Positions 35,549-39,649 of a stretch of 64,000 bases of DNA are shown in pieces (position 1 is the first letter of the stretch; every line of letters starts with the position of its first letter). The stretch is taken from assembly GCA_017792345.1 (NCBI GenBank), contig CP051228.1, positions 1,116,001-1,180,000 on the forward strand. Reading direction: 5' to 3'. Position numbers and translations under genes: made by a program. The DNA is from Mesoflavibacter sp. (GTDB lineage Bacteria; Pseudomonadota; Alphaproteobacteria; UBA8366; Aestuariispiraceae). Below the pieces are notes generated by a model. The model was not told the DNA's origin and made no database searches. It was given only the letters and a program-made list of their open reading frames with translations.

Positions 35549-35909
35549 ATCACCCGCATCGAAAGCCGAGCCACCAGTGTAGCCCGCTTCGAACCGAAGC
35601 CAACCCGCCACGACCCCGCCATTGCCGCCCTCAGGGCACGAGAGCTATGCGCGGGGATTAAGGGGGACGGTCGGGATGCCGCGGCCTCTCACGACGCCGA
35701 AGGGGGCATGGGCGCGTTTATCGAAACCGAACCAGCAAAACCATACGCAACGACGATCAGAGAGCGCCTTGACCGGCGTGATCAAAATGAAAAGTTCTCA
35801 AAATTAGCCACGGGCAGTCATTGCCATACCGATCATCAAATGACGTATTTGCGACCGGAAGCAGATCGGCGGCCTTCGGGCACTGATTGAACCGTCCCAT
35901 CAATTCCGA
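35549..35909. other. Gene-free 361-base junction, GC drop at its right end
   Basis: I see no credible gene, RNA or terminator here. Base composition is GC-rich near 35549 but turns clearly AT-richer from about 35780 onward, marking the left edge of the accessory patch. It presumably contains the promoter of the minus-strand EamA gene. Confidence 0.5.
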
Positions 35910-36254
35910 CTATTTGATCCTCCATGCAACGTGCCCTTTAGATTGCACATACCCATGATAACGGCCCCTGAAACCCGACAGCGCGCCCTCGTACTGCGAC
36001 AAGATTAGAATAGCATCGCTGTACTGCGGTAATGCTTCGTCATCCAGTAAATCCAAGTACCGTCCTTCCGGTTCATCGTTCATAAAGGCTCGAATGTCGG
36101 TCAGGATTCGGTTGATGAACTTCACCTTGTTTGCACTGAGTGTGTCAGCAGGTTTCTTCATACCCAATGCCTTCAGCTCTTTGTTTAGGTGTTGAAAGGC
36201 GGCCACAACGCCGTCATAGGCCTCGGCCTTCTCCTTTGTGGTGTGGTCGTTCAT
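35910..36254 (-). CDS. Small hypothetical protein, third gene of nuclease operon
   Basis: This 114-residue acidic, helical protein has no signal peptide. Its core (NRILTDIR; LPQYSDAILILSQYEGALSG; GFRGRYHGY) aligns by eye with the preceding protein (NKILGDK; IPSNSDATVVLAIYLEELER; YRSDLL), so the two are paralogues. The stop of the upstream gene is 1 base before its ATG, and AAAGGCAAG acts as ribosome site. It belongs to the lower-GC, three-gene operon. The function is unknown; a regulatory or immunity partner of the nuclease-like protein is inferred only from context. Confidence 0.7.
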   Translation of the reverse strand: MNDHTTKEKAEAYDGVVAAFQHLNKELKALGMKKPADTLSANKVKFINRILTDIRAFMNDEPEGRYLDLLDDEALPQYSDAILILSQYEGALSGFRGRYHGYVQSKGHVAWRIK

Positions 36255-36255
36255 A

Positions 36256-36633
36256 TCACTTGCCTTTCAAACGTTTCGGCTGCGCAGCGCGTAGTTTGGT
36301 GCCATCTTCAAACTCGTACCAGTAGCGACCGCTTGAGAACGTCAACAGGTCGCTTCTATAGCGTTCGAGTTCTTCCAAATAGATCGCCAAGACTACCGTA
36401 GCGTCGCTGTTACTTGGTATGTCGTCGGCGTTAAACTCGGTGAACCCATCCACCGGCTGATGCTTGTCGCCAAGAATTTTGTTTGCTGCAGCGAGGGCGC
36501 TGTTTGTGAGGTTAAGCTTGAAAGTGTTGAGACCATCCGTAGAAGATTTTTTCGCCAGAAGAGTAATCTCCCTGTGCAGCCCTTCGATCTTCCCGGTGAC
36601 CTTTTCAAGTTGTTCGATTTCTTCTCGGTTCAT
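36256..36633 (-). CDS. Small hypothetical protein, second gene of nuclease operon
   Basis: From ATG 36633 the product is 125 residues; GAGGAA lies 6 bases upstream, so I prefer this to GTG 36654, which overlaps the upstream gene. The N-terminal half is a probable coiled coil (REEIEQLEKVTGKIEGLHRE). The second half contains ANKILGDK and IPSNSDATVVLAIYLEELER, the segment shared with the next gene. No known family is recognised. Lower GC than the flanks and 1 to 8 base spacings to both neighbours mark a tight operon. Confidence 0.75.
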   Translation of the reverse strand: MNREEIEQLEKVTGKIEGLHREITLLAKKSSTDGLNTFKLNLTNSALAAANKILGDKHQPVDGFTEFNADDIPSNSDATVVLAIYLEELERYRSDLLTFSSGRYWYEFEDGTKLRAAQPKRLKGK

Positions 36634-36641
36634 GATTTTCC

Positions 36642-38111
36642 TCAACTCGGACACAATCGATGAAACTCGACGTACTTCTTCTTCAAAACATCTAGTGGCA
36701 AGCGTTGTCCGCTCTCAAACAACTCAACCATCTGCGCAATATCTGCATCCGTAAGCGTTACTATCGTGCGGCGCTGACCCGCCCACAAATCAATTGTATT
36801 CTGCATGCGCGCCTTCTTAAGTGGATGCCTCGTGACCAGCACGCCGAACTTGCCAAGAGTATCGGTCATATATCGGTTTAGCTGATTGATGTGGTCACGA
36901 CTTATTTCTGCCACGTTTTTCATCTCAAATACGAGTTGCCGAGAACCATAATCGTCCATCAGGTGCTTCAGGAACTCATGAGACTGGTTGTTGTAAAAAA
37001 TCAGGTCACGAATTTGGGCCCCACTCTCTGTTCTTGACTGCGTCGCAGCAAAATCGAGTTGCGGATAAAGCAGCGACGGCAGAAGCTGACAAAGCGCATC
37101 CTCGTACTCGCGATCAGCATTGCCCGTCTTGCCGGTCGTCAAGTTCTCGATCAGGCTTAGCTTGCGTTTTGCCGATACGACTGGAATTTGCGAGAAGAGT
37201 GGGTCGTTGGCACAGTCTGCAAAGGTGCGCTCTTTTTCAGTGATGTAGCGTTCGACGGCACCATAGTTGTCCCGATTGTACGAAAGCACCTCCACCCGTC
37301 CGATATCCTCTGGATTGTGTGAGATTTCGTCCAAAGGACAGTAGTGTCTGAAATAGTCGTCGTAATTGATCCACGGTGAAAAACGAAGCCATCGCTTAGG
37401 CACTAGAATCAACGGCTCGCCGGTTTCTGGATTTGCAGGTAACTCGATCCCTTCGGCAGTAGCGAAGCCGTATTGCCTGTAATCATACAAGTCGGGAATT
37501 TTGCTCGCGACTCTTGGGATCTCCAGCCGCTGGCACTCGTCTATTGTGAAGTCGATCAGAAATGATTTGAGGAAGTTGCAGGCAATGTCGCTGATTCGGT
37601 CTTTCGAAATGTCTTCCACGAAGAACTGGATTTCCTCAAAGTGCCGAAAACCCGCCTTCGCATAATGAGGAATTCGCTTGAACAGCTCTAGAACTTCACG
37701 TGCCTTCGTTTCGCCGATGCGCTTTCCTTTGCGTTTCGCTGATGATCCTAGCCCGACTTCGTCACACTCCGACGCTCGTATTAGCGACTCAACAGCGTCA
37801 TCTTCGTTTCCGGAACGATAGGTATGACCGAGCTGGTTGAATGCGTTGATCAGGCTTGTGTGGAGCGCCTGATCTTGCTGCGATGGTGAAGCCCACAGTA
37901 AGAACGGATCGAGATAGAGCGGAATGTCTTCATCAAAGTGGGGAATGGCAAACGCCAGTTCTTCCTGTGGACGTTGCACACCATGAAAGTCTGTCAAACG
38001 GGGGGAAACTAGCGGCAAGTTCCTGAACACCTCACTGGAAGAAGCAAGATTCTTTGTCTCAATACGAAAAACAACGCTGCATTTGCCAAGCCAGAAATGT
38101 GCTTTCAACAC
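36642..38111 (-). CDS. Large protein with PD-(D/E)XK-like nuclease signature, unrecognised family
   Basis: The 489-residue protein has a C-terminal region with D369 (AQIRDLIFYN), then E396 and K398 (RQLVFEMKNV), spacing D-X26-E-X-K, and a following helix (DHINQLNRYM). This matches PD-(D/E)XK nuclease core layout, with hydrophobic strands before each acidic residue. The N-terminal 300 residues (YLDPFLLWASPSQQ; FKRIPHYAKAGFRH; FVEDISKDRISDIACNFLKS) match nothing I know. The start is uncertain: GTG 38111 or TTG 38108 with GAGG too close. Lower GC, AT-rich codon third positions and the operon context suggest horizontal transfer and possibly defence. Confidence 0.72.
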   Translation of the reverse strand: MLKAHFWLGKCSVVFRIETKNLASSSEVFRNLPLVSPRLTDFHGVQRPQEELAFAIPHFDEDIPLYLDPFLLWASPSQQDQALHTSLINAFNQLGHTYRSGNEDDAVESLIRASECDEVGLGSSAKRKGKRIGETKAREVLELFKRIPHYAKAGFRHFEEIQFFVEDISKDRISDIACNFLKSFLIDFTIDECQRLEIPRVASKIPDLYDYRQYGFATAEGIELPANPETGEPLILVPKRWLRFSPWINYDDYFRHYCPLDEISHNPEDIGRVEVLSYNRDNYGAVERYITEKERTFADCANDPLFSQIPVVSAKRKLSLIENLTTGKTGNADREYEDALCQLLPSLLYPQLDFAATQSRTESGAQIRDLIFYNNQSHEFLKHLMDDYGSRQLVFEMKNVAEISRDHINQLNRYMTDTLGKFGVLVTRHPLKKARMQNTIDLWAGQRRTIVTLTDADIAQMVELFESGQRLPLDVLKKKYVEFHRLCPS

Positions 38112-38398
38112 CTCGATTCAGTGATTGAAGCTGCGCCCTTGTTGTGATGCGGGCAGTGTGGCTACGGTTGTAGCCGGTTCCCTCGTGAAAGTCATCCTTT
38201 CGAGCGTTAACCCTGATCCCTCAGGCGCGGCGAGACTGGCTCTCCGCTAATTCTGACTACTGGGCTGACCGCAATACCGAACGGCCGACACTCAACACAA
38301 AGCGGTCGTTCTGAAACGAACATGTGAAGGCTGCTCCGGATCATCAGCAGACTATACGACCTTGAGCGTCCGGCGTTCGGTAAGGCAGCGATACCCCC
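38112..38398. other. Gap right of the accessory operon
   Basis: No gene is supported in these 287 bases. Composition rises back towards high GC by about 38340. A promoter for the leftward nuclease operon should lie near 38112-38200, but I could not identify convincing boxes. Confidence 0.45.
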
Positions 38399-39649
38399 TC
38401 ACCCGGCCCGTAGCTCGCCCTGCAGCATGCGGGATACGGCGTGGGTGCCGGTGATGTAGGCGCCGTGGGCGGTGCTGAAGGCGTCGGGGGAGCAGGCTTC
38501 GCCGGCCAGTGCGAGGCGGTTGTCGAATGGCTCCCGCAGGGCGGCGCGGGCGGCGTGGCGGCCGGGTAGGGCGGCGGAGTAGCCGCCCAAAATGTTGGGG
38601 TCGGTCGACCAGCAGCTTGAGATGGCGCCCAGGATTTTCCCGCGCAGATCGCTGCCCAGGATCTCGACGACGGCGTCCAGCGTATAGTCGATCAGCGCCG
38701 CGCGTCCGCCCTCGCGGGCGAGGTCCGCCGCCAGATCCCCGGCCAGATAGCCGCCGATCGTGTTCTGGCCGAATTCGTGGAAACTCACCCCGATCATATG
38801 CCCGGCCCTGGGCATGATATGGGCGATGACCGGCGGGTCCATGACCGGCCCGTCGGTGAACAGCGCCACCCGCTCGGCGAAGCCCAGGCGCACATCCTCC
38901 AGCGCCCCGCGCACCGCATTGGGCAGGTCCGGCGTGAACCGGATCGATCCGGACCGCAGCACGTCGGGCGAGACGGTGACGATCACCGCCTGGGCGGTCA
39001 GGGTTCCGTCCGGCGTTTCGACCCGGACGGTCTCGCCGGTACGGTCGATGGCGCTGACCGGGCAGCCGGTGCGAATCGGCAGACCGTCCGCCAGACCGGC
39101 GATCAGCGCGCCATAACCGTCCTTGACCGGCCAATCCTCCCCGGTTTCGGCATAGGCTTTCACATCCTCGGTCGAAATCCGCTCCGGCGGCACGCCGACG
39201 ATGGCCCCGCACCAGCCGGTATAGATGTCGCGGAAGGGCGATTGGCCGTCGATCGCCGCCGCAACCGACACATCCGCCTGCACCGCCAGGGAGCGCTGAT
39301 AGCATTCGGCATAGTACCGGCCACAGGCCGCGCGCGTTTCCTCATCCTGCAGCACGCCGTCGCGGTAGAGCGCCGGGGGAAATGCACCATGGGTCCCGTG
39401 CATCTTCATCGTCTCGCCGCGCGTCAGGGCGGCCAGCGAAAACGGGTTGCGCGAGGCGCTGTGCAGGAAATGGCAGCCCAGATCGTAGGCGATGCCGCGT
39501 TCCCGGACGGTATGCGCCCGGCCGCCGATTCGGTCGGCAGCCTCCAGGATCTGCGTCTTCAGCCCGGCCGCCCGCGCCGCCAGTCCGGCGCCTATCCCCG
39601 CCGCCCCTGCCCCGACGACGACCAGATCCCATTCCGCGCTTTTCGACAC
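38399..39649 (-). CDS. FAD-dependent amine oxidase family protein
   Basis: The 416-residue flavoenzyme has an N-terminal Rossmann FAD motif (DLVVVGAGAAGIGAGLAARA then ILEAADRIGGRAHT) and a C-terminal FAD-contacting segment (RLALAGEACSPDAFSTAHGA). It belongs to the flavin amine oxidase group; the substrate is unknown. I chose GTG 39649 because GGAGGAGGGG lies 4 bases before it; the frame is open further upstream without a site. It is divergent from arsC. Confidence 0.88.
   Translation of the reverse strand: MSKSAEWDLVVVGAGAAGIGAGLAARAAGLKTQILEAADRIGGRAHTVRERGIAYDLGCHFLHSASRNPFSLAALTRGETMKMHGTHGAFPPALYRDGVLQDEETRAACGRYYAECYQRSLAVQADVSVAAAIDGQSPFRDIYTGWCGAIVGVPPERISTEDVKAYAETGEDWPVKDGYGALIAGLADGLPIRTGCPVSAIDRTGETVRVETPDGTLTAQAVIVTVSPDVLRSGSIRFTPDLPNAVRGALEDVRLGFAERVALFTDGPVMDPPVIAHIMPRAGHMIGVSFHEFGQNTIGGYLAGDLAADLAREGGRAALIDYTLDAVVEILGSDLRGKILGAISSCWSTDPNILGGYSAALPGRHAARAALREPFDNRLALAGEACSPDAFSTAHGAYITGTHAVSRMLQGELRAG

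Follow-up and report, generated by a model that had tools for sequence, protein, structure and literature searches.

Does the low-GC three-gene operon in this stretch of DNA encode a defence system, and is that system new? The window, which is the whole stretch of 64,000 nucleotides that was analysed, lies inside a single 4.9-Mb contig. The operon is on the minus strand and consists of a large gene, M36A, followed by two small genes, M36B1 (36256-36633, minus strand, 125 amino acids from an ATG) and M36B2 (35910-36254, minus strand, 114 amino acids). The original prediction had placed a three-gene minus-strand operon here with gaps of 8 and 1 bases, and the open reading frame coordinates agree: 8 bases separate M36A from M36B1 (36634-36641) and a single base separates M36B1 from M36B2 (36255). 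The best explanation, to which we give a probability of about 0.7, is that the operon is a horizontally acquired, self-contained candidate defence module of the catalogued type PDC-M36, in which M36A would be a metal-dependent DNA endonuclease.

The three proteins all match a candidate system that is already catalogued. In PADLOC-DB 2.0.0 (2023), M36A matches PDC-M36A (models PDLC04597/04598) with an E-value of 2.3e-229 over residues 34-489, corresponding to positions 3-457 of a profile of 457, and both small proteins match PDC-M36B (models PDLC04599/04600) with E-values of 1.1e-38 for M36B1 and 1.9e-34 for M36B2. The likeness to PDC-M36 extends over nearly the whole A model and includes the presence of two B proteins and their arrangement in one operon. 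No difference was found, and the PADLOC-DB entry is a candidate without a stated mechanism. The idea that the module might be undescribed is ruled out by this entry. A passage of PMC12988326 describes PDC systems as putative candidates obtained via guilt-by-embedding and gives a 2024 bioRxiv preprint (10.1101/2024.01.29.577857) as their source; it also says that most members of the core set of PDCs it covers still await validation. PDC systems are termed unvalidated in a passage of PMC12813430. A literature search with preprints outside its scope found no text naming PDC-M36. NCBIfam gave nothing above its cut-offs for the proteins of the operon, and M36A had no tblastn match at 1e-5 in the phage collection. 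Three PHROGs families of no known function match M36A, and one of them, phrog_27295, covers the N-terminal part. The statement that the N-terminal 300 residues belong to no family holds at Pfam and NCBIfam cut-offs but not for PADLOC PDC-M36A and phrog_27295, both of which match.

The translated part of M36A is probably shorter than its open reading frame. The frame spans 36642-38111 on the minus strand and has 489 codons counted from the first GTG. In most relatives homology to M36A opens at about residue 30-34, and because of this residues 1-27 are probably untranslated. The start would lie at residue 28-34 or so, at the GTG at 38030 or at a nearby TTG, with the frame itself opening at 38111. 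The likely coding part is 36642-38030 (minus strand), and it would encode an N-terminal domain (residues 34-260, approximately) and a C-terminal PD-(D/E)XK-type domain (approximately 329-470). The extent of the open reading frame was correctly given at the outset, but the translated length is more likely about 456-462 amino acids than 489.

An empty site in relatives, low GC, a patchy distribution, and a tree at odds with the phyla support the view, proposed earlier, that the module was acquired by horizontal transfer, and the acquisition would be recent. The inserted segment covers 35619-38400 (2782 bp) and is missing in relatives. In the nearest relative (G003), blastn homology stops at 35618 and restarts at 38401, and 115 bp replaces the 2782 bp. 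The genes that flank the insert here, for an amine oxidase and a DMT-type transporter, are side by side in six relatives (G001-G005 and G007), where the spacing between the protein matches is 34-129 bp. The large protein is found in none of 58 relatives, five of which belong to the same genus. Apart from short non-coding ends, the insert contains nothing but the three genes. GC is 0.50 in each of the three genes and 0.512 across the insertion, and in the rest of the window it is 0.574-0.712 in 1-kb steps outside 36001-38000; the operon was described as visibly lower in GC than all of its flanks, and these values bear that out. GC at third codon positions is 0.57-0.62 in the operon versus 0.85-0.86 in the three flanking genes that were measured.

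The idea that the insert is a mobile element carrying a tyrosine integrase was rejected, as there is no Phage_integrase (PF00589) match inside it; the closest matches on the chromosome are about 53-58 kb away. No direct or inverted repeat of at least 12 nt links the two insert ends. An imperfect inverted repeat is present within the insert upstream of the operon (38275-38382, minus strand), with 21-nt arms that are 86% complementary and a 66-nt spacer. Its fold z-score is -3.3, and just one of 200 shuffled sequences folded equally well. A conserved upstream RNA was considered and rejected: the repeat has no Rfam match at E-values up to 1, and blastn at E 1 finds nothing matching the 390-base upstream stretch ahead of the operon in the other copies (L026-L063).

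Homologues of the operon are found in many lineages. Thirty loci came from one scan of genome contigs, and 28 have a full-length A that is 55-72% identical to the query; the loci are from Pseudomonadota, Bacteroidota, Bacillota, Verrucomicrobiota, Chloroflexota, Nitrospirota, and Poribacteria. Plasmid copies in Cyanobacteriota (Leptolyngbya) and Methylobacterium bring the total to eight phyla, among which Poribacteria, Nitrospirota, Chloroflexota, and Bacillota are represented by metagenome bins only, which may be misassigned. In a midpoint-rooted tree of 29 A sequences, those from Nitrospira and Poribacteria, both from metagenome bins, are nested within a Pseudomonadota group on well-supported branches, a topology that would fit transfer. 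In all 28 loci compared, the operon has a lower GC than its flanks, by 0.016 (L058) to 0.196 (L054); coordinates here run from stop to stop, the truncated copies L059 and L063 are counted, and L046 and L055, which have too little flank, are left out. A is also found on six virus-classed IMG/VR contigs, all six of which have the D...E-X-K pattern. Five have both B genes, and the sixth locus ends just past A. We treat these loci as provirus- or island-like rather than as proven phage because TerL_ATPase (PF03354) is found in none of the six and Phage_integrase in three.

M36A is strongly predicted to be a PD-(D/E)XK-type nuclease, as first proposed, and the prediction is strong because of the invariant motif and the topology taken together rather than because of any single score. 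D369, E396, and K398 are at the residues originally named, and they, like E337, do not vary in any of the 31 full-length proteins (a count without the truncated L028, L059, and L063 and without L003, which duplicates L043 at the same place). None of these homologues has lost D369, E396, or K398. In M36A the motif reads D-X26-E-X-K-X11-Q, the glutamine being Q410. The AlphaFold (AF2) model of M36A has a mean pLDDT of 77. Its C-terminal part has the order helix-strand-strand-helix-strand-helix-strand, as in the restriction endonuclease core, with D369 within one strand, E396 within the next, and K398 just past it. The core has pLDDT values of 77-95, except for one block at model residues 331-340 with a value of 52.

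Structure prediction gives a topology like that of restriction enzymes, and the fold matches are weak. The list of PDB folds from Foldseek is headed by Nt.BspD6I, FokI, MspJI, EcoT38I, and RPB5; the restriction enzymes have E-values of 0.002 or worse and TM values below 0.3 relative to the query, and the model has no match at E 0.001 in the PDB or the viral library. The top Nt.BspD6I alignments superpose poorly (rmsd about 22 A, TM 0.18-0.27); FokI and EcoT38I superpose better, with rmsd about 5 A and E-values above 0.1. Pfam PDDEXK_3 reaches 19.2 bits at residues 371-427, under its cut-off of 22, and a profile search of PDB chains with the A alignments gave no credible match. No confident match to a non-nuclease family was found. 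M36A resembles FokI, Nt.BspD6I, MspJI, and EcoT38I in its predicted core topology and its D-X26-E-X-K-X11-Q pattern, while it differs from them in its N-terminal part, in the lack of a methylase, in having two small partners, and in showing neither a fold match at E 0.001 nor a credible sequence match.

Shedu (SduA) is a one-gene system with a large protein that has a C-terminal PD-(D/E)XK-type nuclease. M36A is similar in this respect, but PDC-M36 has three genes, and no SduA match was found for M36A, which matched only the PDC-M36A models of PADLOC at E-values up to 1. A more distant relative of the C-terminal domain (L029:3936-4775) is matched in 42 Enterobacterales plasmid records at 29.5% identity. 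In one of these records a KPC beta-lactamase gene and IS elements are close to this region, and D takes the place of the E in E-X-K.

One more specific version of the defence reading is that M36A is a modification-dependent (type IV, Mrr-like) restriction enzyme that cuts recognised DNA directly without killing the host, the N-terminal domain or the B pair reading modified or foreign DNA. The operon has no methylase gene, the E-X-K...Q pattern is compatible with this type of nuclease, and two relatives with the same N-terminal domain have weak Mrr_cat matches (0.00097 and 0.0057). However, these two matches are under the cut-off, M36A itself has no Mrr_cat match in Pfam at E-values up to 1, and its architecture differs from that of Mrr. 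Pfam finds no known modified-base reader domain, and some homologues adjoin restriction-modification genes that include a methylase. We consider this form possible but rather unlikely.

The two small proteins are paralogues, as had been suggested (hhalign probability 99.8% for B1 versus B2), and they accompany full-length A closely. Of the 30 full-length loci (28 on genome contigs and 2 on plasmids), 27 have a pair of B genes after A, which answers the earlier question of whether the three genes stay together. Among the other three, one is at a contig edge past B1, and two from Bacteroidota have a single B, showing that a B1-B2 heterodimer is not universal. The single B of these two loci (L055 and L056) is nearer to B2 than to B1. 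In the Afipia copy (L035:11758-13316), which is counted among the 27, a transposase gene, apparently IS630-like, splits B2. B is present in 22 of 22 A-bearing genomes tested. Among 398 genomes of the phylum B is found in two, both with full A. Nineteen genomes have an A-profile match, and B is missing from 17 of them; these 17 match via the N-terminal domain, the C-terminal domain, or both of more distant proteins. Among the plasmid records, B1 is found in three, and full-length A in exactly these three. B without A was not seen in the 398 genomes or the plasmid records. The AF2 model of M36B1 has three helices and a small beta hairpin (pLDDT 94). No known fold was found for M36B1, which nothing in the PDB matches at E 0.001, and a profile search of PDB sequences with the B alignments gave nothing credible.

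The constant presence of one or two small partners after A in 30 of 30 full-length loci could point to a second specific version of the defence reading, a toxin-antitoxin or abortive infection module, in which M36A would cut host nucleic acid and B1 and B2 would be inhibitors that are freed on infection. The distances for A and for each B protein are correlated (Spearman 0.73 for A-B1 and 0.78 for A-B2), although shared descent would also produce this. The gene order is against such a system, since the nuclease gene comes first in the operon. Neither B1 nor B2 matches a Pfam family over the cut-off, antitoxin families included, and B1 lacks a fold match at the threshold given above. In addition, nucleases of other clades with the same N-terminal domain have no B genes within up to 1.5 kb on each side (L004-L025), nor does the locus of L032, showing that the N-domain nuclease is not inherently B-dependent. 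These points leave the toxin-antitoxin form doubtful.

Known defence genes are enriched near the homologues yet far from universal. At 1e-10, and among the matches listed, PADLOC models recognise about 10 of 111 neighbour proteins, versus 0 of 78 control proteins. The systems are GajA, type IIG restriction-modification, HsdM, AbiEi, AbiEii, NsnA, RmrA, bSEFIR, HEC-05, and PDC-S02. The figure of 10 counts distinct system names among the best 25 of 143 and the best 25 of 87 families, with matches on one protein merged (DrmMI with the IIG enzyme, mad2 and MTase_II with HsdM) and the remaining matches assumed to be separate proteins; Fisher's p is 0.004 with 10 neighbours and 0.022 if just 7 are separate proteins. 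The neighbour set was hand-picked from 265 open reading frames at 30 loci, taking the nearest ones (about two per side) of at least about 140 amino acids and omitting two very long ones. The controls are 78 of 79 frames (one of 3205 amino acids was omitted) on the same contigs, no closer than about 50 kb to the operon, and they cover 20 of 22 genomes rather than every locus. The type IIG enzyme adjoins L042, HsdM adjoins L055, and a PaeR7I restriction-modification system adjoins a truncated copy in Falsihalocynthiibacter. On a small Methylobacterium plasmid an Abi-family gene is about 6.6 kb from A. The enrichment is far from universal because 8 of 10 neighbours scanned singly have no PADLOC match at 1e-40. 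The evidence is also partly tied to the PDC label, as genome context is how PDC candidates were identified, according to a passage of PMC12988326.

The expected clustering with defence genes is seen in this comparison, and homologues are not consistently found in housekeeping loci of normal GC. However, no defence gene is adjacent at the locus studied here, where the neighbours are metabolic or housekeeping genes, and most neighbours elsewhere have no defence match. A role outside defence, as an accessory enzyme of DNA repair or recombination carried by chance on mobile DNA, would agree with an operon that stands alone between metabolic genes, and with the fact that no interference phenotype is on record. 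The defence-gene neighbours, set against zero among the controls, and the patchy distribution make such a role improbable.

The preferred reading is a candidate defence module, and from the data above we infer DNA cleavage, action against phages (or plasmids), and roles for each protein as follows. The C-terminal domain of M36A would cut DNA in a metal-dependent manner, and the N-terminal domain, with its invariant acidic and glycine motifs, may recognise the target or sense infection. Most likely, B1 and B2 would pair as a heterodimer and bind to M36A; this dimer may keep M36A inactive until infection triggers it or may supply target specificity. At about 2.2 kb the module is compact, and its A homologues on genome contigs are 55-72% identical in a family that reaches eight phyla. 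Easy cloning and clear catalytic mutants mean that this catalogued candidate could become a characterised system. M36A also has a domain with invariant residues and no Pfam or NCBIfam model over the cut-off, and characterising PDC-M36 could hint at the function of this domain in other proteins.

The N-terminal domain is shared with nucleases of several other clades. It is joined to a nuclease subtype with RKRIDI...VECKNY and similar motifs in L004-L009 and to a GPVDFK...E-X-K subtype in L010-L013, L016-L018, L024, and L032, and these proteins resemble M36A in both the N-terminal domain and the D, E, K, and Q residues. The domain stands alone in proteins of 304-317 residues on small plasmids (L030 and L031). 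When 24 proteins, distant relatives among them, are aligned, D62, P69, E115, G122, G129, D171, D175, and P238 are present in all 24, and D68 and S174 in 23. Among the nuclease residues, D369 and E396 are found in 21 of the 24, K398 in 22, and Q410 in 22, although the Q counted for L030 aligns there by chance. L030 and L031 have no nuclease domain, and L033 looks degenerate there. Ten distant relatives, eight of which have the N-terminal domain, have no Pfam family over the cut-off. Tentatively, and with the odds somewhat against it, the N-terminal domain may be an uncatalogued sensor or enzyme common to several defence nucleases, and B1-B2 a new class of heterodimeric nuclease regulator seen with the M36A clade alone; if both were true, this would be a mechanistically new type of defence. 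Within the GPVDFK clade, eight of nine proteins (L010-L013, L016-L018, and L032, but not L024) end in a short tail containing S[AG]SK, which is kept although the sequences are far apart.
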